This document shows, piece after piece, positions 3,344-52,173 of a stretch of DNA of 64,000 bases. The DNA lies in contig NZ_CP082966.1 of the NCBI RefSeq assembly GCF_019968605.1, positions 4,205,501-4,269,500 on the forward strand, given 5' to 3'. Every line of letters starts with the position of its first letter. The first letter of the stretch is position 1. The stretch is from Polaribacter litorisediminis. GTDB lineage: Bacteria > Bacteroidota > Bacteroidia > Flavobacteriales > Flavobacteriaceae. The notes under the pieces are model-generated. The model was not told the origin of the DNA, did no database searches, and worked only from the letters and a program-made list of their open reading frames with translations. The position numbers were made by a program, and so were the translations under genes.

Positions 3344-4597
3344 ATGAAGATTTTTAAATTTGGTGGCGCCTCTGTACAAGATGCGGAAGGAGTAAAAAAG
3401 GTTGCTAGCATTATAAAAAATGAGGGAGCAAAAGACACTTTAGTGGTTGTTTCTGCTATGGGAAAAATGACCAATGCTTTTGAAGAAGTAGTAGATGCCT
3501 ATTATAACAAAAAAGAAAATTTACCCAATAAATTAACCTTTATAGAAGCGTATCATAAAAAAATTATGAATGCACTTTTTGATAAAGAAGATTTTATATA
3601 TAAAGAAGTAACGATTCTTTTCGGAGAGTTAGGCTGGTTTTTAGCAAGAAACACATCGCAACGATTTAATTATGTGTATGACCAAATTATTTGTTTTGGC
3701 GAGCTTTTATCCACTAGAATCGTAAGTGCGTATTTAGAAAAAATAGGACAAGAAAATGTTTGGTTCGATGTTCGAAATTTTATAAAAACGGATAGTAATT
3801 ACAGAGATGCAAAAGTAGATTGGCAATTAACAGAAGAGATTATTACAGAAAAAGTAGATATTCATAAAATAAATATTACGCAAGGTTTTATTGCTGCCAA
3901 TGATACTGAAAACACCACAACTTTAGGTAGAGAAGGTTCAGATTATACAGCCGGTATTTTTGCATATTGTTTAAATGCCGAGAGTGTTACGATTTGGAAA
4001 GATGTTCCGGGAGTTTTAAATGCAGATCCTAGAGTGTTTACCGCAACTACTTTGTTGGAGCAAATCTCATACGAAGAAGCCATAGAAATGGCTTTTTATG
4101 GCGCCTCTGTAATTCACCCAAAAACATTACAACCTTTAGAAAGAAAAGAAATTCCGTTGTTAGTGCGTTCGTTTATAAATCCAAAGGAAACGGGTACAAA
4201 AGTTACCAAAGGAACAAAATTAATGCCCTATATTCCTTGCTTTATTGTAAAGAAAGAGCAAATTTTGGTTTCTATTTCTGCATTAGATTTCTCTTTTATG
4301 GTAGAAAATAATATTAGTTTTATTTTTCAGAAACTGCATGATTATCAATTAAAAGTAAATTTAATTCAGAATTCTGCGTTGAGTTTTTCTGTTTGTATCG
4401 ACGATAAATTTTATAAGTTTGATGCTTTTTACAACGAATTGAAAAAACAGTTTAAAATTGATGTTCAGAAAAAAGTAGATTTATATACAGTACGTCATTT
4501 TGATGAAGAGGCTATAAAAATTATTGAAGAGAAAGGAACTTCTTTATTAACCCAAATAAATAAAGAAACATCACAAATTGTTGTAAATCCGAATTAA
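3344..4597 (+). CDS. lysC: Aspartate kinase (monofunctional)
   Basis: A 417-residue aspartate kinase, which phosphorylates aspartate as the first step toward lysine, threonine, methionine and diaminopimelate. The amino-acid-kinase start KFGGASV is at residues 5-11, and the catalytic-domain motifs TTLGREGSDYTA and WKDVPGVLNADPR are present. Residues after about 300 form a divergent ACT-type regulatory region. The length matches the short monofunctional Bacteroidetes type rather than a fusion with homoserine dehydrogenase. It lies upstream of olsF but with a 56-base gap containing a separate -7 element. Confidence 0.9.
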   Translation: MKIFKFGGASVQDAEGVKKVASIIKNEGAKDTLVVVSAMGKMTNAFEEVVDAYYNKKENLPNKLTFIEAYHKKIMNALFDKEDFIYKEVTILFGELGWFLARNTSQRFNYVYDQIICFGELLSTRIVSAYLEKIGQENVWFDVRNFIKTDSNYRDAKVDWQLTEEIITEKVDIHKINITQGFIAANDTENTTTLGREGSDYTAGIFAYCLNAESVTIWKDVPGVLNADPRVFTATTLLEQISYEEAIEMAFYGASVIHPKTLQPLERKEIPLLVRSFINPKETGTKVTKGTKLMPYIPCFIVKKEQILVSISALDFSFMVENNISFIFQKLHDYQLKVNLIQNSALSFSVCIDDKFYKFDAFYNELKKQFKIDVQKKVDLYTVRHFDEEAIKIIEEKGTSLLTQINKETSQIVVNPN

Positions 4598-18014: not shown

Positions 18015-18115
18015 CTATTTCAATTTAAAAAGAAACCATAAACGAATGCTATGCTTTATTTTTCTATGTTCTACAAAGAAAAAAATCATCATTTTATATT
18101 ACAGTAATTTCAAAC
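18015..18115 (+). repeat. Dispersed ~100-bp repeat, copy 1
   Basis: This stretch, from CTATTTCAA to GTAATTTCAAAC, matches 55888-55987 along its length with small indels (shared AAAGAAA, ACGAA, TATGCTTTRTTTTT, TCATTTTA and GTAATTTCAAAC blocks). It lies in the 314-base intergenic stretch ahead of the first RNA unit. No coding potential is seen. Confidence 0.5.
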
Positions 18116-18159
18116 CAGGATTGGTATAAAATACTTTTTTATAAAAAAAATAGTCCAAC

Positions 18160-18202
18160 TGACCTAAGTCACTTCCCAGGCTATAAAGCCCATGTATATT
18201 TG
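18160..18202 (+). promoter_or_regulatory. FNR-like activator site and -7 element of RNA unit 1
   Basis: The palindrome TGACCTAAGTCA occupies 18160-18171 and the -7 element TATATTTG occupies 18195-18202. The palindrome centre is 29.5 bases before the -7 element, placing it near -41 of the expected start at about 18206. This is the class II position for CRP/FNR activators. Confidence 0.7.
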
Positions 18203-18553
18203 TAGTGTAATTAAGAAAACAAGTTCTTTGAAATTATTAAAATATAAATTTTTGGACAGCAATGTTCATTGAATTTTGAAGGGATAAAACTTATTTTAAG
18301 CGGTGCGATATATGTTTCTTTCAATAGAAATATAGAAAGAGCAAGTACTCTTAAACTACATTTTATTTCTTTAAAGCAATCGAAACATTTCGGTGTTTTG
18401 ATTGCTTTTAAAATGATTTTTGTTTGCAGTAATGTAGCAGAAATCTTATGAAGTAATTAGCATTTTTATTTTAAAAGTCCGTTTGTAAAACTCTCTAGAT
18501 ATAGATTTTTTAACTAATTGGTATTGCTAGATAAAATATTATGAACTTCATAG

Positions 18554-18585
18554 AAAACGGAAAGTTAAGGCTTTCCGTTTTTACT
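18554..18585 (+). terminator. First terminator of RNA unit 1
   Basis: AAAACGGAAAG pairs fully with CTTTCCGTTTT around a six-base loop and ends in a T-rich tail. The same hairpin is found at 19263-19294. Confidence 0.8.
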
Positions 18586-18725
18586 TTTTATGAGAACATA
18601 TAGAATTTAAAAAAATATATTACCAGTTATTGTTTCAAATTATTAGAAAATAAAATGATAGATGGTACAAGAGTCAATTGGGGGATTGGATCGGTATGAA
18701 AGGTAACTTTCATATCATTAATAGG

Positions 18726-18755
18726 CTGGAGGTTTTTTATAACCTCCAGTTTTTT
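18726..18755 (+). terminator. Second terminator of RNA unit 1
   Basis: CTGGAGGTT pairs with AACCTCCAG and is followed by a T-run. The counterpart is at 19407-19438. Confidence 0.8.
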
Positions 18756-18864
18756 AATACATAGGCAATATGTCAAGTTTATATTTTTACTTTATAGAAT
18801 CTTCTTTTTTTGTGTCACAAAATGGAAATTAAATAGGGTATTATTTAAAAAAAAACACCCTAAC

Positions 18865-18907
18865 TGACCCAGATCAGTGTCTATGCTTTAAAGCCCATGT
18901 ATATTTG
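18865..18907 (+). promoter_or_regulatory. FNR-like activator site and -7 element of RNA unit 2
   Basis: ACTGACCCAGATCAGT surrounds the palindrome core at 18865-18876, and TATATTTG lies at 18900-18907. The spacing from centre to -7 element is 29.5 bases, the same as in unit 1, although the palindrome halves differ. Confidence 0.7.
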
Positions 18908-19262
18908 TAGTGTAATTAAGAAAGTAAGTTCTTTAAAATTATTAAAATATAGATTTTTGGATAGCGATGTTCAATGAATTTTGGAGTTATAAAACGCATT
19001 TTAAGTGTTGTGATATATATTTTTAGCAATAGGAATATAGAAAGGGCAAGTATTCTTAAACTACATTTTATATCTTCGAAGAAATCGAAACATTTTTGTG
19101 TTTCGATTTCTTTAAAAAAATGATTTCTGTATACAGCAAAGTAGCAGAGGTTTTATGAAGTGATTGGCATATATCTTTTAAAAATCCTTTTGTAAAAAGG
19201 CTCTAGAGATAGAATTTTTTAAATGATTGGTGTTGCTAGATAAAATAATAAGAACTTCATAG

Positions 19263-19294
19263 AAAACGGAAAGTTTAGGCTTTCCGTTTTTACT
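19263..19294 (+). terminator. First terminator of RNA unit 2
   Basis: AAAACGGAAAG/CTTTCCGTTTT hairpin with T-rich tail, identical in stem to that of unit 1. Confidence 0.8.
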
Positions 19295-19406
19295 TTTAAA
19301 AATTTAAAAAATATAATACCAGTAATTTTAAATAATAAATGGTAGAAAAGGCAATAAGAGTCAATTGGGGAATTGAATCTGCATAATTTTTTTTATGCCA
19401 CCAAAA

Positions 19407-19438
19407 AGCTGGAGGTTTTTTATAATCTCCAGCTTTTG
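19407..19438 (+). terminator. Second terminator of RNA unit 2
   Basis: AGCTGGAG pairs with CTCCAGCT and is followed by four T. Confidence 0.75.
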
Positions 19439-19504
19439 TATGTATAAAAGTTACGTTTTTCCAATCATTAAAAATGAACTTCAAGAGTAATACCAATTTA
19501 TCGG

Positions 19505-19705: not shown

Positions 19706-20191
19706 TTAAGTTAATAACGCTTCTATTGCAGCCAATTCACTACTTCTTCCTCGAATAATTAAACAATAATTATCATTTTTTAATGCAGAGAAATAGCTTT
19801 TAAATTCCTTTGCATCAATACCTAATCCTCTAAAAATACCAGCAAGACCTGCTGGTAAAGAAGCGAGTTCTTTTTTATTAACTTTATTAAGAAATACAGG
19901 GGTTAGATGCCCCGCAATAAACAAGGAACCAAGCTCTGGGTTATAAAAGTAGCCAAACTCAAATTCCTTACCTAAAATGTCTCTTAATTGCTTTTTTATA
20001 TCGGCAATGATTTTTTCAACTTCCTTTTTAGTAAGTGTTTTACGGGTCGTTATTTTTCCTAAAATGGATATTTGAAGCGGTACCTCCATTTTTTGAGCAA
20101 TATTTTTTATAACCTTCCTTATTTCTGATAAATTTGGATATGTTTTAATAATAAATATTTTTTTTGTTTTTTTATTTTCTCCAGAAGACAT
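19706..20191 (-). CDS. Conserved-type hypothetical protein in the LOV-kinase operon
   Basis: A 161-residue, Lys-rich protein without signal peptide or membrane segment; not recognised. The middle is a charged helical stretch (LTKKEVEKIIADIKKQLRDI). The C-terminal 55 residues (LPAGLAGIFRGLGIDAKEF, YFSALKNDNYCLIIRGRSSE) resemble the C-terminal fold of DUF1269/general-stress 17M proteins, where a short alpha/beta unit follows a glycine zipper, but the zipper is missing here. It lies 84 bases after the hybrid regulator on the same strand, so it is probably the last gene of the kinase-regulator operon. Its link to that signalling system is inferred from position only. Confidence 0.6.
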   Translation of the reverse strand: MSSGENKKTKKIFIIKTYPNLSEIRKVIKNIAQKMEVPLQISILGKITTRKTLTKKEVEKIIADIKKQLRDILGKEFEFGYFYNPELGSLFIAGHLTPVFLNKVNKKELASLPAGLAGIFRGLGIDAKEFKSYFSALKNDNYCLIIRGRSSELAAIEALLT

Positions 20192-20275: not shown

Positions 20276-21346
20276 TTATCCAAACATCGCAATGTTGTTC
20301 AAATATTTAGGATTTTCTATATAGATTTCTCTGTGCACACCAAGAGTTACTAAGTTTTCGTCTTTAAAATCGGTTAGCATTCTAATGGCAGTTTCAGTAG
20401 CCGTACCTATAAGACTCGCTAAATCTTCTCTAGAAATTGAAATTCCTTTATTATCAGAATGATAAAGTATTTCTTTTTTAGATAAATCTACAAGCACTTT
20501 TGCCAAGCGCTGTCTAACGGTTGCAAAAGCCATGCTAATTAGTTGTTCCTGAAGTTCTACAATATCATTAGAAATCATAGAAATAAATTTATTCGAGATC
20601 AATTTATCCCCAAATAATAAGGATTTAAAATCTGTTTTAGGTATTTCAAACAAACTTGTGTCTTCTAAAGCAATGGCAGTATCTCTATAAGATCCTGCAT
20701 CAGAAAGCACAGAAAGTTGTCCAAAAAATTGTCCGGGTCCAAATAAGCCAGTTACCAAACATTTACCAGATTCTGTAGTTTTATAAGTTTTTATGACTCC
20801 TTTTTGAATAAAATAGAGTGCATGTGCCGTATCACCTTCCATAAAAATAGTGTCTTTTTTCTGAAAGTTTATAACATCTCTATTTTCATAAAGGCTTTCG
20901 ATTCCTTCATGCATAGATACTTCATTAAAGAACTGTTTAACTCCTGCTAAATCTTTAGAAAATTCTTTTTTAAGAAAGCTATGTTTTTTGAGTCTAGAAG
21001 CCACTGCTTCTAATAATTCGTTTTCTTGAAAAGGCTTTTTAAGATAATCATCAGCGCCTAGGTTCATTCCTTTTCTAACATCTGTTCTTTCTGTTTTAGC
21101 GGTTAAAAAAATAAAAGGAGTCCTAGCTGTTTTTTTGTCTTTATTTAAATTTAGCAATACGTCATAACCATTCATTTTTGGCATCATAATATCACAAATA
21201 ATAATATCAGGTTGAAATGATTTTGCACTTGCTATACCATTATCTCCATCTGAAGCGGTGCTAACTTGATAGTTGGCTAGTTCTAATATTTCTGCTGTAT
21301 TTTCTCGGACATCTTGGTTATCTTCAATGATTAAAATTTTTTTCAT
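20276..21346 (-). CDS. Receiver-CRP/FNR hybrid response regulator
   Basis: A 356-residue regulator. Residues 1-120 are a CheY-like receiver with phospho-acceptor Asp52 (IIICDIMMPKMNG) and conserved Lys104. Residues about 140-260 are a cyclic-nucleotide-binding-type beta barrel (MEGDTAHALYFIQKG, GPGQFFGQLSVLSD). Residues about 304-330 are a CRP-type winged helix-turn-helix. The recognition helix keeps Glu318 and Arg322, the residues that in CRP and FNR read TGA half-sites. There is no FNR-type cysteine cluster, so it cannot carry the oxygen-sensing iron-sulfur centre. It starts 8 bases after the kinase gene ends. It is the best candidate for binding the TGAyC...GrTCA palindromes in this window, including the one in front of its own operon. 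Confidence 0.9.
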   Translation of the reverse strand: MKKILIIEDNQDVRENTAEILELANYQVSTASDGDNGIASAKSFQPDIIICDIMMPKMNGYDVLLNLNKDKKTARTPFIFLTAKTERTDVRKGMNLGADDYLKKPFQENELLEAVASRLKKHSFLKKEFSKDLAGVKQFFNEVSMHEGIESLYENRDVINFQKKDTIFMEGDTAHALYFIQKGVIKTYKTTESGKCLVTGLFGPGQFFGQLSVLSDAGSYRDTAIALEDTSLFEIPKTDFKSLLFGDKLISNKFISMISNDIVELQEQLISMAFATVRQRLAKVLVDLSKKEILYHSDNKGISISREDLASLIGTATETAIRMLTDFKDENLVTLGVHREIYIENPKYLNNIAMFG

Positions 21347-21353
21347 AATTAAT

Positions 21354-24350
21354 TTATTTAGTTGTTTGGTTAATTAATTTAGTGGGTCGTTTAGTTAGTT
21401 TTGGCCACTTTATTAAAAAAGTAGTGCCTTTATTAATAGCGCTTTTAAAGCTAATAGTGCCCCCCATAAGGTCTACGTATTGTTTTACAATATTAAGACC
21501 TAGTCCTGTTCCTTCAATATTTTGTACATTTTTTGCTCTAAAAAAACGTTCAAATAATTTGTCTTGTTCTTCTTCAGGAATACCAATACCTAAGTCTTTA
21601 ACTTCTAGAGATACAAAAAAGTCATTTTCTTTAATTTTAATAATGATATCTGTATTTTCTGGAGAATATTTTATGGCATTCGATAGCAAATTCATTAAAA
21701 TATGACTCACTAGTTTTGGGTCTAGGTTGATGAAAACAGGTTTTATGGGTGTTGAAAAAATGATGTTTTTACCTCTATTTTTTGTGATAGATACTTCTTC
21801 TAAAATTGTTTTAGAAAGCGCAACAAAATCAAAGAGTTTATTATTTGTCATTAATTTTCCTTCCTCTAATTTGCTTAAAGACAAGAAATCATTTAAAATA
21901 ATAACCAATTGTTTTACATTTTTCTGTATTTGATTTACATATTTTTCACGCTTTAATTCATATCCAACTTCGTTTTGTTTAGCAATAAGAATTGCTGATG
22001 TTTGAATTGCACTTAAAGGTGTTCTAAATTCGTGAGAAGCCATAGAAACAAAACGAGATTTTAATTCATTAAGTTCCCGCTCTTTTTCTAATGCTTGTTT
22101 GGTGTCTTTTTCTATTTTTTTTTGAGCAGTGATATCGTTATAAACAAATAATGCACTAGAAATTATACCTTCTTTATCAATTAACGGCGAGGTGTTTGCT
22201 GCAAAATATTGATTTTTATACCTTATTTCGAAACTAAGATGTTCTCCGCCTATGGTCTTAGAAATATCTTGTTTTAGTTTGGTTTTTTGTTCTGTAGAAA
22301 AGATAGGAAAATCATCTATAGTTGTGTCATGAAAAATGATAGTATCTAATTTTAAGGGTTTAACAGATGCGCCTTCGATAAGAATTATTTGAAAATTTCG
22401 GTTAAAAACAATGATAAATCCATTAGGAAAATTTTTAGCAATTGCTGAGGATAAATATTTACTAGCAGCAGCAATTTTCTCCGCTGCTAGCGTTTCTTCT
22501 ATTTGGTCTTCTAAACTTAAATTAGAGGTTACAAGCTGTTTTGCGGTAATTGTTAATTCTTCGGTTCTATTTTCTACTTTTTTCTCTAATTCTTTAGCAT
22601 ATTTGGCAAGTTGATTTCTACTGACTTCCAGTTCTTTTTCTAGTCTTTTTTCTTCTGTAATATCGATTCCAGAACTAATAACACTAATCGGATAATTGTT
22701 ATGATCTCTTATAATTCCGTAGCGCCATTGAATAATTCGTTCTCTATTTCCTGCCAAAACTTTGTTTTCGTAGGCATCAATTGGTGCAATCTCACTTTTT
22801 ATTACTTGGTCAAAAATTGCTGATAATTTTTTTCTATTGCGTTCTGGTATAAAATTATTGAACCAGTTTTTACCAATAATTTCATGATGTAAAACTTGTA
22901 GAACCTCGCATGCCTTTCGGTTGGCAAATTCTATTTTATGATTGGCATTTATAACCAAAAAAATTGAGGAAGCGGTGTTCATATAGCGATATAATAGCTC
23001 CTTCTCTTTTTTGAGTTCTAATACTTTTTCTTCTAATTCTAGAGCCTGCTGTTCTAAAGCTCTTTTATTCTCTTGTAATTCAATGCCCTTGTTATGTGCT
23101 TCAATAGCGATACTAGCTAAATGACTCAAGTCTAAAAGAATTTTTTTTTCTTCTTTTGAAGCTTTTCTTCCATCCTTACTGTATATCGTAAATCTGCCTA
23201 AAATATTTTTGGTAGAAGAAAGAATGGGAGACGAACAGCATACTTTTAGATCATTTTTTAGAGCAATTTCTTTATGACCCTCCCAAAGGATCTTTTCCTC
23301 TGTTTTGGAAACAAAAATCTCCTTTTTTAAAAATTCAATAGTACCAAAAAAATCTTCTTTTAACTCAGTAGTACTATCTTCAGTATTACCCGGAATGTTT
23401 TTTGTTAAATGTGCAGATGTATAATTGTGTAGCACTTTATTTTCTTTATCTAATACTAAAATAGACGCTAAACAATTTTTAAAATGATCTTCAATAATTT
23501 TTGTGATTTTGGTAGAAATTGTTTTTAATGATTGATTTTCAGCAATTAGCTCAAGTATTTTTTGGGTATGATTTTTAAGATTTTCTTGTTTTACTTTATT
23601 CGTAACATCATTTTGTACTCCAATATAATTAGTTAAAATATTGTCTTCATTAAAGACTGGGGTAATACTAACGTTATTCCAAAATAGTGTCCCATCTTTT
23701 TTATAATTACGGACAATAACATTGCATAATTGTTCATTCTGAATCGCATTTTTTATAACGCTAATAGCCTTTTGATTAACATCATCTCGTTGTAAAAAAG
23801 AGCAATTTTTATCAAGTACTTCTTCTTCTTTATATCCTGTTATTTTTGTAAAAGCAGCATTGCAATAAATAATAGGGTTGCCCTTTTTTTGAGCATCAGT
23901 AATCAAGATACCATTACTAGTAGAGGCCAATGCGTTATTTCTAATACTAAATAAAGTATCTTGTTTTTTTTGTGCAGTAATATCAACTACAAACGCAATA
24001 ACAGCTTTTTTCCCTGCAATTGTTGTTGGGCTTAAACTAATATTTACAGGAAATTGAGAGCCATCTTTCTTTTGTCCCCACAACTCTAAATGTTGTGTCC
24101 TTGTTCTTGGGTTGGGCTTCGTAATATAGCCTTCTCTATGATTTTGATGTATTTTTTTAAATTTATTCGGAATAAGAATTTCTATTTCTTGGTTTTCAAG
24201 TTCGTCTAGATCATAGCCAAAGAGTTTTGCACTAGCCAAATTGGCTTTTATAATACAACCATTAGCATCTACTACCAAAATACCTTCCACTGATGACTGA
24301 AATATATTTTTAAATAATTCTATTTCTATATCTTGAAGTTCTTTATTCAT
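21354..24350 (-). CDS. PAS/LOV/GAF multi-domain sensor histidine kinase
   Basis: A 998-residue soluble sensor kinase without membrane segments. Domains in order: PAS (about 11-125); a LOV-type PAS (138-250) with KNCSFLQ containing Cys183, NYKKDGTLFWN and GVQNDVT; GAF (about 265-425); a short coiled coil; PAS (about 465-580); coiled coil; PAS (about 645-755); HisKA with His773 (SMASHEFRTP); and HATPase with N, G1 (DLGIGIP) and G2 (GTGLGL) boxes. Cys183 and the Asn/Gln residues are those used by LOV domains for flavin adduct formation, although the usual Arg of NCRFLQ is Ser. It probably phosphorylates the hybrid regulator directly downstream. Its promoter carries an FNR-like site. Confidence 0.9.
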   Translation of the reverse strand: MNKELQDIEIELFKNIFQSSVEGILVVDANGCIIKANLASAKLFGYDLDELENQEIEILIPNKFKKIHQNHREGYITKPNPRTRTQHLELWGQKKDGSQFPVNISLSPTTIAGKKAVIAFVVDITAQKKQDTLFSIRNNALASTSNGILITDAQKKGNPIIYCNAAFTKITGYKEEEVLDKNCSFLQRDDVNQKAISVIKNAIQNEQLCNVIVRNYKKDGTLFWNNVSITPVFNEDNILTNYIGVQNDVTNKVKQENLKNHTQKILELIAENQSLKTISTKITKIIEDHFKNCLASILVLDKENKVLHNYTSAHLTKNIPGNTEDSTTELKEDFFGTIEFLKKEIFVSKTEEKILWEGHKEIALKNDLKVCCSSPILSSTKNILGRFTIYSKDGRKASKEEKKILLDLSHLASIAIEAHNKGIELQENKRALEQQALELEEKVLELKKEKELLYRYMNTASSIFLVINANHKIEFANRKACEVLQVLHHEIIGKNWFNNFIPERNRKKLSAIFDQVIKSEIAPIDAYENKVLAGNRERIIQWRYGIIRDHNNYPISVISSGIDITEEKRLEKELEVSRNQLAKYAKELEKKVENRTEELTITAKQLVTSNLSLEDQIEETLAAEKIAAASKYLSSAIAKNFPNGFIIVFNRNFQIILIEGASVKPLKLDTIIFHDTTIDDFPIFSTEQKTKLKQDISKTIGGEHLSFEIRYKNQYFAANTSPLIDKEGIISSALFVYNDITAQKKIEKDTKQALEKERELNELKSRFVSMASHEFRTPLSAIQTSAILIAKQNEVGYELKREKYVNQIQKNVKQLVIILNDFLSLSKLEEGKLMTNNKLFDFVALSKTILEEVSITKNRGKNIIFSTPIKPVFINLDPKLVSHILMNLLSNAIKYSPENTDIIIKIKENDFFVSLEVKDLGIGIPEEEQDKLFERFFRAKNVQNIEGTGLGLNIVKQYVDLMGGTISFKSAINKGTTFLIKWPKLTKRPTKLINQTTK

Positions 24351-24375: not shown

Positions 24376-24418
24376 CAAATGTATACACAAGATACATAAT
24401 TTAAAATGATCTAGGTCA
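24376..24418 (-). promoter_or_regulatory. FNR-like site and -7 element of the LOV-kinase operon
   Basis: On the minus strand the palindrome TGACCTAGATCA (24407-24418) stands 29.5 bases, centre to edge, before TACATTTG (24376-24383). The 16-mer around it is identical to that in front of ppsA. This implies autoregulation of the kinase-regulator operon. Confidence 0.7.
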
Positions 24419-24453
24419 TGTTACAGATTTCATTTTTAAATGTTTACATCTAC

Positions 24454-24496
24454 TGATCTAGATCATTTTAAAAAATTACCAATAGCGGTAGTTTTG
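24454..24496 (+). promoter_or_regulatory. FNR-like site and -7 element of the peroxiredoxin operon
   Basis: TGATCTAGATCA at 24454-24465 is a perfect 12-base palindrome and the closest to the FNR consensus half-site TGAT. TAGTTTTG at 24489-24496 follows at the same 29.5-base spacing. The two divergent sites at 24407 and 24454 serve opposite strands. Confidence 0.7.
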
Positions 24497-24535
24497 ATTT
24501 CAGTAATAATTTTAGTTAAAACTAATAGTAGAACA

Positions 24536-25255
24536 ATGGAAACGATTCAAGAAAAAGAGCAAATTTCGGCAATGCCAAGAATAGGAGATAAGGCTCCTAA
24601 TTTTAAAGCAACAACAACCCAAGGAGATATTAATTTCCCTGAAGATTATGCAGGTAAATGGGTAATTCTGTTTAGTCATCCGGCAGATTTTACACCTGTT
24701 TGTACTTCAGAATTTATAACGTTTGCAAATCTTGAAAGTAAATTTAACGAGGCTAATTGTTTATTACTTGGTTTGTCTATTGATGGTTTATATAGCCATA
24801 TTGCTTGGTTGCGCACCATTAAAGACAAAATAGAATTTAATGGAATAAAAAACATGGAAGTCAAGTTTCCTTTAATAGAAGATATTTCGATGACAATAGC
24901 TAAAAAATATGGAATGGTACAGCCTAACGAAAGTAAAACTCAGGCGGTCCGAGCTGTATTTTTTATAGATCCAAATGGTATAGTTAGAGCGCTAATTTAT
25001 TATCCTATAAGTCTCGGAAGAAATTTTGATGAAATTTATAGAGCATTAATCGCCATGCAAACAGCAGACGCATTTAACATAGCTACTCCAGCAGATTGGC
25101 AACCAGGAGATGATGTCATTATTTCGCCTGCAGGATCTTGTGGTGTTGCAGAACAAAGGATGACTTCTAGTGATGAGCTAGATTGTAAAGACTGGTTTTT
25201 TTGTACTAAAAAATTAGACAAACAAGAAGTGTTAAGCACTATTTTAAAAAAGTAA
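24536..25255 (+). CDS. Peroxiredoxin (Prx6/AhpC-TSA type)
   Basis: A 239-residue peroxiredoxin that reduces hydrogen peroxide and organic peroxides. The peroxidatic Cys56 is in SHPADFTPVCTSEF. C-terminal cysteines 202, 217 and 223 resemble the extra cysteines of archaeal-type Prx6 enzymes that resolve the sulfenic acid. The ATG at 24536 is chosen over an in-frame ATG at 24440. The earlier one lies upstream of the FNR-like site and of the -7 element at 24489, so it could not be in the transcript. It would also add a hydrophobic leader not seen in this family. It begins an array of same-strand genes reaching the N-ATPase operon. Confidence 0.88.
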   Translation: METIQEKEQISAMPRIGDKAPNFKATTTQGDINFPEDYAGKWVILFSHPADFTPVCTSEFITFANLESKFNEANCLLLGLSIDGLYSHIAWLRTIKDKIEFNGIKNMEVKFPLIEDISMTIAKKYGMVQPNESKTQAVRAVFFIDPNGIVRALIYYPISLGRNFDEIYRALIAMQTADAFNIATPADWQPGDDVIISPAGSCGVAEQRMTSSDELDCKDWFFCTKKLDKQEVLSTILKK

Positions 25256-26008: not shown

Positions 26009-28401
<2,393 letters not shown>

Positions 28402-51467: not shown

Positions 51468-51568
51468 TATGAATACCTGAATGCTCCATTTTTTGAGTTA
51501 TCAAAACTAAAATACAACACATATTTTCTTTTCTAAACATTTATTTCTACCTATTTATTGCTTATGAC

Positions 51569-51611
51569 TGACCGTAGTCATGGTGCTTTATCTTCTTATC
51601 ATCTAATTTTA
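51569..51611 (+). promoter_or_regulatory. FNR-like site and -7 element of the 51.8-kb cluster
   Basis: TGACCGTAGTCA at 51569-51580 is a perfect palindrome, and TAATTTTA at 51604-51611 is a near-consensus -7 box at the same 29.5-base spacing found in four other promoters here. The leader to the first gene would be about 170 nt. Confidence 0.6.
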
Positions 51612-51786
51612 TCGCATACTTTAAAAGATACGTATCATAGATAAATGAGTATGATGATTTCTTATTGATTTTTTTCAAAAAAAAGCTTTGAAATACATTT
51701 TTTTTCTATGGATAGTTTCTGTAAAACTTCTTTTTAAAAGAATAATTTAATATGCGAAAATTAAAATCAATGTTAATCACAAATAG

Positions 51787-52173
51787 ATGAAAAAAGACAA
51801 GAAAACACAAAAAAATCTTGGGATATGGATGGATCATTCAACTGCAAATTTAATTGATTTAAAATCCAAGAAACGCAGTTATTCAATATCATTAGACCGC
51901 ACATCGAATATAAATGATGATGGTTTGATTAAAAGTGAAAGAGGTATACACAATAGAAAACAGGAATTGCAAGAGGCTTATTATAAGGAAATTGCAGAGG
52001 TTATTTTAAAATACAATCATGTGCTCTTATTTGGTCCTACAGATGCAAAAATGACTTTATTTAATTACTTAATAAATGATTTTCATTTTAAGGATATAAA
52101 AATTGATGTTGAAGTTGTAGATAAAATGACAGAGAATCAACAAGTTGCTTTTGTGAAAAATTTTTTTGAATAA
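51787..52173 (+). CDS. Small eRF1/BaeRF-like protein
   Basis: A 128-residue cytosolic protein. The start (LGIWMDHSTANLIDL) and the LLFGPTDAKMTLFNYL segment resemble the alpha/beta eRF1-like or 'host attachment' (BaeRF) family, a domain related to translation release factors, but no GGQ-type catalytic residue can be placed. The function is therefore not assigned. It is the first gene behind the FNR-like site and precedes a LapA-like gene by 76 bases. Confidence 0.55.
   Translation: MKKDKKTQKNLGIWMDHSTANLIDLKSKKRSYSISLDRTSNINDDGLIKSERGIHNRKQELQEAYYKEIAEVILKYNHVLLFGPTDAKMTLFNYLINDFHFKDIKIDVEVVDKMTENQQVAFVKNFFE

Follow-up and report, generated by a model that had tools for sequence, protein, structure and literature searches.

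A modular, structured RNA family with a strict CRP/FNR-type promoter in Flavobacteriaceae and its possible place in a low-oxygen regulon

The titration RNAs CsrB and RsmZ bind CsrA through repeated GGA hairpins, while DrrS (MTS1338) is a DosR-induced small RNA (sRNA) of Mycobacterium. Many FNR-controlled bacterial sRNAs act by base pairing, and 6S RNA has the shape of one long hairpin with a central bubble. In the regulator FixJ, a receiver is joined to a LuxR-type helix-turn-helix (HTH).

The window analysed here, a 64-kb stretch (64,000 nucleotides) of the 4.34-Mb genome of Polaribacter litorisediminis, carries a tandem pair of candidate RNA units beside genes for a PAS-domain kinase and a regulator that fuses a receiver to CRP-type domains. 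A sequence-only reading had described the pair as two structured non-coding units of about 550 nt with common promoter, body and two terminators, under FNR-like control and perhaps tied to the adjoining light/redox system. We hold with high confidence that the units are copies of a modular structured RNA family with a strict promoter. What the RNA does is treated below in more guarded terms.

Layout of the units and spread of the family

Both units were found (~18136-18765 and ~18841-19450), with promoter, body and two terminators in common and 79% identity by blastn; the blocks they share are 83%, 81%, 93% and 77% identical at an offset of 683-709 bp. Each runs from an upstream palindrome through a promoter and a body of ~375 nt to a terminator, T1, followed by an appendage with a second terminator, T2:

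18157..18174, + strand: CRP/FNR-type palindrome of unit 1 (AACTGACCTAAGTCACTT), read in the sequence and in keeping with the family-wide box and spacing
18195..18202, + strand: -7 promoter element of unit 1 (TATATTTG), the end of TAnnTTW lying 36 bp from the box centre
18221..18233, + strand: boxA-like motif of unit 1 (AAGTTCTTTGAAA; rRNA leaders of the same genome have AGTTCATTGAAAATATTG)
18221..18410, + strand: module A of unit 1 (P1, P2 with inner hairpin, P3), from covariance models R1 and R2 and covariation
18373..18408, + strand: P3 hairpin of unit 1 module A, from sequence and covariation
18411..18586, + strand: module B of unit 1, ending in T1 (hairpin ~18554-18582); homology of B to A is shown in other copies
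18674..18757, + strand: appendage of unit 1, with the TCAATTGGGGGATTGG hairpin, the rebuilt hairpin and T2
18862..18879, + strand: CRP/FNR-type palindrome of unit 2 (AACTGACCCAGATCAGTG), from sequence
18900..18907, + strand: -7 promoter element of unit 2 (TATATTTG), from sequence
18926..19115, + strand: module A of unit 2, with boxA-like AAGTTCTTTA at its start (R2 58.7 bits, E 3.5e-11; covariation)
19078..19113, + strand: P3 hairpin of unit 2 module A, from sequence and covariation
19105..19298, + strand: module B of unit 2, ending in T1 (hairpin ~19263-19291), from R2
19361..19437, + strand: appendage of unit 2, with rebuilt hairpin and T2, from sequence

The two units are thus real, but the length of ~550 nt does not stand, as the conserved RNA is the ~375-nt part up to the first terminator and consists of two homologous modules. 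The accompanying proposal of a short (~375 nt) and a long form gains little. The stretch with the second terminator, traced by the hairpin TCAATTGGGGGATTGA among 40 loci, occurs only in this genome and in G016 and G118. It is found once in G016, behind the fourth copy, and alone in G118, near the regulator gene and without the main unit; the appendage hairpin with its terminator may therefore be a separate small RNA. This hairpin and terminator lie at 18674 and 19361 in the window, at 4519 in locus L163 and at 7380 in L027, and the region in unit 1 gives a weak match to R1 (18637-18757, 27.1 bits, E 0.0019).

None of the 4227 families of Rfam 15 gave a match above its gathering threshold anywhere in the 64-kb window. 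In E-value mode, positions 18100-19500 returned 20 sub-threshold matches (the best at 30.6 bits against the 48 needed), and seven homologous loci returned two, both sub-threshold. The earlier failure to recognise a named family is thereby borne out at curated thresholds, and, as no such RNA was described in the open-licence literature searched, the family is apparently undescribed. An identity as 6S RNA was rejected, there being no 6S family among the Rfam matches and the fold being P1-P2-P3 rather than a single long bubbled hairpin. A hidden conserved open reading frame was rejected as well: among frames of at least 25 aa in 11 units, place, frame and length vary, as expected from the earlier description of units without an ORF, and the frames of 60, 49 and 26 aa shared by the window's two units are absent from the other nine.

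The genome holds seven copies, two in the window and five, full or near-full, in a second array about 650 kb away on the opposite strand (C1:3575007-3581386), which neighbours an OmpA-family gene and an L,D-transpeptidase gene. The relatives G016, G107 and G029 have tandem arrays of four, five and three copies; in G016, of the same genus, the array lies between an OmpA-like gene and a receiver-CRP gene with a PAS kinase, as beside the window copies. At L026 (9160-9220, - strand), the terminator of an OmpA-family gene closely resembles T1.

A search of 84,980 named species genomes for palindrome plus boxA returned 28 stretches, and ten of them were inspected; nine contain the RNA body (Maribacter, four; Eudoraea, two; Pricia antarctica, Kordia aestuariivivens and Aquimarina muelleri), and it is absent from the tenth, L050 of Algoriphagus. 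The exact pattern matched 11 of 397 genomes of the family, where by our judgement only those in this genome (G000), G476 and G491 are real and the rest look like matches of the reversed control. Covariance model R1, whose 12 training sequences come from this genome, G016, G154, Kordia and Aquimarina, matched 10 of 166 same-genus genomes at E 0.01. Six were judged real, with seven copies in G000, five in G107, four in G016, three in G029 and one each in G072 and G154, the last having a further, overlapping match on the wrong strand. Among the 397 family genomes it matched 16, of which 15 (all except G415) were judged real. Model R2 was built from 14 sequences of Maribacter, Eudoraea, Pricia-like and other relatives outside this genus, some of them first found with R1; it recovers this genome's units at E 3.1e-13 and adds a further genus (G347 and G526, E 1.5e-25 and 4.1e-27). 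The covariance-model search which the earlier reading had proposed therefore does find homologues in other genera.

R2 matched 10 of 316 genomes of the order and 6 of 296 of the phylum, and none of its matches outside Flavobacteriaceae was judged real, so that, as far as the models can tell, the RNA family looks confined to Flavobacteriaceae and patchy within it. It occurs in about 15 genera (g1, g38, g52, g57, g81, g100, g124, g128, g175, g179, g220, g231, g236, g237 and g248), those with names including Maribacter, Eudoraea, Pricia, Kordia and Aquimarina; g57 is represented by one weaker match (G225, E 1.2e-4), with box and boxA present. Absences are soft, because model searches over more than 40 genomes used stricter filters, and one locus found by R1 (L150 of G523) was missed by R2 at E 1e-4. 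False matches on ordinary gene terminators reached E 3e-5 to 1e-2. On inspection, the matches in G091, G070 and G073 were tRNA-Ser terminators and those in G025, G701 (two), G782, G690 and G983 gene terminators, while box and boxA were absent from all 15 of a further set (G415, G596, G791, G725, wrong-strand G220 and ten more weak R2 matches). Alignments A4 (94 matches, some wrong-strand) and A5 were left out of the counts.

Conserved structure and modular construction

The RNAalifold consensus of the window group (12 sequences) consists of a P1 hairpin, P2 as a long-range pairing, and P3. Changes on both sides occur in 14 of 52 pairs, as against 3-9 with partners slid, and 95.5% of cells pair, as against 32-54%; in the second group of 14 sequences, the corresponding values are 20 of 33 pairs (3-8 when slid) and 91.5% of cells, the outer P2 pairs being weaker at 78%. 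The structures scored on alignments A2 and A7 were drawn largely from these same alignments, and in A7 the P2 pairs were picked by eye, so that such comparisons are tilted in favour of these structures and against the slid controls; alignments A2, A6 and A7 were made without fitting to a model. The covariation score was reached by none of 500 shuffles in either group, and the count of further pair types by five of 500 (window group) and two of 500 (second group). The hairpin inside P2 also covaries (in the second group, columns 118-128 are C-G in eight and U-A in six of 14 sequences) and has a GNRA loop in 12 of the 14.

When both groups were aligned together with MAFFT (A6), P3 alone was recovered, as the groups align badly in P2; they were consequently analysed apart. 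P1 and the loops drift between them and much of the conservation lies in structure, although stretches such as GUAAG and ACC.UUU are conserved in the second group. The contention that stems are kept while sequence drifts is thus upheld above slid and shuffled controls in both groups. So are its particulars: the 15-pair hairpin with a C-G to A-T double change and a G-U to G-C change is present at 18373-18408 and 19078-19113, and the second hairpin, rebuilt with different letters, stands before the last terminator in unit 2 and in other copies too. Folding energies of 36 modules have a mean z of -4.8 for the whole and -2.7 without boxA and P3, the inner part (beyond P3) falling below -1 in all 36 and below -2 in 25, a test which leans towards structure because model-found modules are among the 36.

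The module so defined is about 190 nt long, comprises the P1 hairpin, a P2 stem enclosing a mostly GNRA-capped hairpin, and P3, and occurs once or more per transcript. Module A of unit 1 scores 176.9 bits with R1, of which it is a training member, and 56.2 bits (E 1.3e-10) with R2, which contains no sequence of this genus. R2 also shows the two halves of a unit to be homologous: module B of unit 2 (G000:C1:4224605-4224798) scores 44.9 bits (E 3.6e-7) with this model of other genera's sequences only, and second modules directly behind first ones at other loci reach up to 181.9 bits (Eudoraea). Of 71 R2 modules, 69 were counted (a duplicate locus and a wrong-strand match being left out), with same-genome copies non-independent. 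Modules right behind another had neither box (0/13) nor boxA (0/13). Among the 56 others, a box lay 30-115 nt upstream in 51, boxA (at most one mismatch) was present in 48 and both in 47; 294 of 6400 random 85-nt stretches had a box. Of the five box-less modules, four are placed farther along the same array and could be later modules; the fifth (L157) has a one-letter variant box. Given the homology of modules and the lack of box and boxA on following ones, we read T1 as the P3 of the last module turned terminator; the last P3 of a transcript would then appear to be its terminator.

The boxA-like AAGTTCTTTGAAAATATTAAAAT is similar to AGTTCATTGAAAATATTGAAAT, which this genome has in its 16S rRNA leaders; such a motif is present in six of the seven rRNA leaders inspected (the seventh is only 96 nt long on its locus). 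We read it as boxA on the strength of this likeness and of what is known from E. coli and Bacillus; with the start site placed as described below, a motif like that of the host's rRNA lies near the 5' end of a predicted untranslated transcript.

Promoter, regulon and the adjoining kinase and regulator

The palindrome is close to CTGAYCTAGRTCAG and of the CRP/FNR type (TGA-N6-TCA). In 31 of 38 units its centre is exactly 36 bp upstream of where TAnnTTW ends, two having 34, two 31 and three no match; the 38 are a subset of the 56, from which mostly near-copies and the four box-less later modules were left out. In Bacteroidota, transcription starts about 5-6 nt downstream of the -7 element, and with this start assumed the box comes to a class II position near -41.5, by which the promoter is a predicted class II CRP/FNR-activated one. 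The FNR-like control first proposed for the two units thus extends from the palindromes at 18157-18174 and 18862-18879 to a fixed spacing of box and -7 element throughout the family.

Across 31 loci (556 kb), 163 sites combine box and -7 element at a spacing of 35-37, as against three for a reversed-half-site control, and 59 of the 163 have boxA (at most two mismatches) within 60 nt. Plotted by spacing, the boxes form a peak one base wide at 36, where 65 bear boxA and 92 do not; counts at all other spacings range from 0 to 11. Once exact repeats and the duplicate locus are removed, 150 pairs at 36 remain, of which 39 have boxA within one mismatch, 22 only when two are allowed, and 89 none; the division into boxA-bearing and other boxes is approximate, and the 89 pairs come from 30 neighbourhoods, close relatives included. 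The rigid 36-bp promoter is thus common to at least 89 other distinct pairs, and the regulon can be sought genome-wide. Among the genes behind the boxes without boxA are those for universal stress proteins, Hsp20, BON, PPDK/PEP synthase, pyridoxamine-oxidase-like proteins and an ATP-synthase beta-like subunit (Pfam on representatives), as well as thioredoxin and Mla-type permeases (named by eye). Recurring neighbours of the RNA loci are PfkB, phosphoribosyltransferase and DUF2267 proteins. In this genome, the 14-bp palindrome with at most one mismatch has eight sites (control, none): five RNA promoters, the site at 24453, one before a permease gene and one inside an uvrC-like gene (both by eye). 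Taken together, the RNAs would seem to be products of a low-oxygen-type regulon.

In the window, the box-promoter also precedes the kinase/regulator operon and a peroxiredoxin gene:

20276..21346, - strand: receiver fused to CRP-type cNMP-binding and HTH domains, from Pfam and co-occurrence
21354..24350, - strand: sensor histidine kinase with several PAS domains, among them a FixL-like and a LOV-like one
24406..24419, - strand: regulon-type box oriented towards the kinase/regulator operon, its -7 element at a spacing of 35-37
24453..24466, + strand: a second such box, oriented towards the peroxiredoxin gene (ORF 24440-25255)

The true start of the peroxiredoxin frame is probably downstream of its box. 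The two boxes are separated by 33 bp in the divergent intergenic region (24406-24466). Elsewhere in the window, a regulon-type promoter stands before a small ORF beginning MKKDKKTQKNLGIWMDHS (51568-51787). ATP-synthase beta-like genes lie at 26932-28401 (by eye) and at 4766-6232 of L155, the latter with a regulon-type promoter, and a 161-aa protein without Pfam match (19706-20191, - strand) has relatives in seven of the 31 RNA loci, two of which are one species.

The receiver-CRP protein likely regulates the RNA, to judge from its distribution and its own promoter. It finds a match at E 1e-30 in 45 of the 166 same-genus genomes, in two classes: 12 genomes at 55-100% identity, and others at 39-50%, where the match is sometimes confined to the receiver. 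The 12 with a close orthologue include all six RNA-bearing genomes of the genus, an outcome whose chance would be C(12,6)/C(166,6), or ~3.5e-8, on the assumption of independent genomes, which does not hold; the regulator gene of G029 and of G154 is far from the RNA. This co-occurrence, and the same box in the kinase/regulator promoter, support the suggested link to the adjoining light/redox system. The regulator does not need the RNA, as the other six genomes with a close orthologue have none by R1 within 17-20 kb around the gene, save two weak matches in G118 (22.6 bits on the lone appendage and another of 19.6 bits), and by R2 nothing in them passes the box/boxA check, their weak matches being as in regulator-less genomes.

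The kinase is predicted to sense oxygen and blue light. Its PAS domain matches FixL chains at E 8.8e-11 to 5e-9 and DosP at 6.6e-9 and weaker, the best match being another kinase (10jx, 3.7e-16), and its histidine aligns with the FixL His column, which we take to be the haem ligand. The second PAS is LOV-photoreceptor-like, with NCSFLQ. In G016, the amino-terminal part of the kinase differs (by eye). FixJ was rejected as an identity for the regulator, whose receiver is fused to cNMP-binding and Crp HTH domains.

Possible modes of action and comparison with known systems

Our best explanation as a whole, to which we incline by a small degree, is a low-oxygen-switched, abundant, stoichiometric trans RNA. 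Low oxygen, perhaps with light, would activate the kinase; the receiver-CRP protein would bind the box and recruit polymerase; boxA would keep polymerase going to the transcript end; and the hairpin-rich, untranslated RNA would accumulate and might titrate an RNA-binding protein via its repeated modules, by a CsrB-like logic with unrelated sequence. We infer with good support that the receiver-CRP protein (or a paralogue), driven by the kinase, switches the RNA on with the low-oxygen/stress regulon, and the same may be said of boxA letting polymerase complete an untranslated hairpin-rich transcript; the least certain of these steps is that an abundant RNA acts stoichiometrically and in trans. 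A free trans-acting RNA is nonetheless probable, and tandem copies with repeated modules favour a stoichiometric role. Titration of a protein is possible though somewhat doubtful: repeating modules and transcripts multiplies identical sites, which titration of a protein would lead one to expect, while the failure to identify a protein-binding motif in the RNA family counts against the best explanation. More speculatively, the modular RNA could be the principal output of an oxygen/light-sensing FixL/receiver-CRP pathway, its repeated ~190-nt domains binding one protein (perhaps a factor of translation or of ribosome hibernation, or NusB-S10 via boxA) whose free level cells would set by RNA dose when oxygen runs out.

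Among the other readings, base-pairing sRNAs, a paralogous array whose unpaired stretches would target mRNAs belonging to the regulon or to aerobic metabolism, have the precedent of FNR-controlled sRNAs and the conserved GUAAG and ACC.UUU of the second group to commend them; however, much of the conservation is structural, P1 and the loops differ from group to group, near-identical tandem copies (d and e here, and the four of G016) fit dose better than diverse targets, and complementarity to 16S rRNA, at 14 nt for both units against 12-17 in eight shuffles each, does not exceed chance, so that we regard this as rather unlikely. An improbable alternative is a cis-acting leader or attenuator of the next gene. 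That gene is on the same strand at 18 of 31 loci (transcript ends being partly estimated), and at L152, L155, L158, L160 and L161 one family of small proteins of ~130 aa follows in this way, where a local leader role is possible. Yet 13 of the 31 loci, including those of the window, G016, Kordia, Aquimarina and Pricia, are convergent with the next gene, by which a leader role cannot be general; moreover, tandem copies each have their own promoter and terminator, and the next genes differ.

The boxA motif, close to that of the rRNA leader and heading 48 of the 56 modules without a preceding module, might suggest that many boxA transcripts bind NusB-S10 as decoys, lowering rRNA antitermination when oxygen is short. 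A single boxA at the head is, however, just where antitermination of an untranslated RNA alone needs it, and such a decoy would leave the modules unexplained; we give it a slim chance. Hardly credible is a functionless mobile or decaying repeat, such as a REP-like element or repeated terminator: the copies are tandem, numerous and AT-rich, and false model matches fall on ordinary terminators, but compensatory changes, base-exact promoter spacing, boxA and neighbour genes that recur across genera all speak against it.

A structured RNA family from ~15 genera of one bacterial family is added to a phylum with few understood non-coding RNAs, and offers a natural test of boxA on regulated non-coding RNAs and of modular, dose-based RNA action.

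The Rfp sRNAs of Flavobacterium psychrophilum (PMC9723704) are likewise structured and come from the same bacterial family, but the main text of that report, as far as consulted, has neither FNR nor boxA, nor such a tandem family. What the present RNAs have in common with boxA of rRNA leaders is a GTTCWTTGAAAATATT-type motif close to the 5' end of a transcript that is not translated, here on putatively stress-regulated non-coding RNAs instead. The likeness to CsrB/RsmZ is one of logic only (multiple hairpins, repeated sites, several copies and presumed two-component control); here the repeats are folded domains of ~190 nt without GGA hairpins, and there is no Rfam match. DrrS/MTS1338 is similarly a non-coding RNA, produced along with a hypoxia regulon in which universal stress proteins and Hsp20 abound, and the gene set of that mycobacterial (DosR) regulon is one which the present regulon resembles; the phylum and the class of regulator are different, the box here being of CRP/FNR type. 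Finally, the FixL-FixJ-FixK cascade has a comparable FixL-like PAS kinase, receiver and CRP/FNR-type output at a class II position, whereas here the roles of FixJ and FixK are fused in one receiver-CRP protein, the kinase has a LOV-type PAS in addition, and a non-coding RNA is among the predicted outputs.
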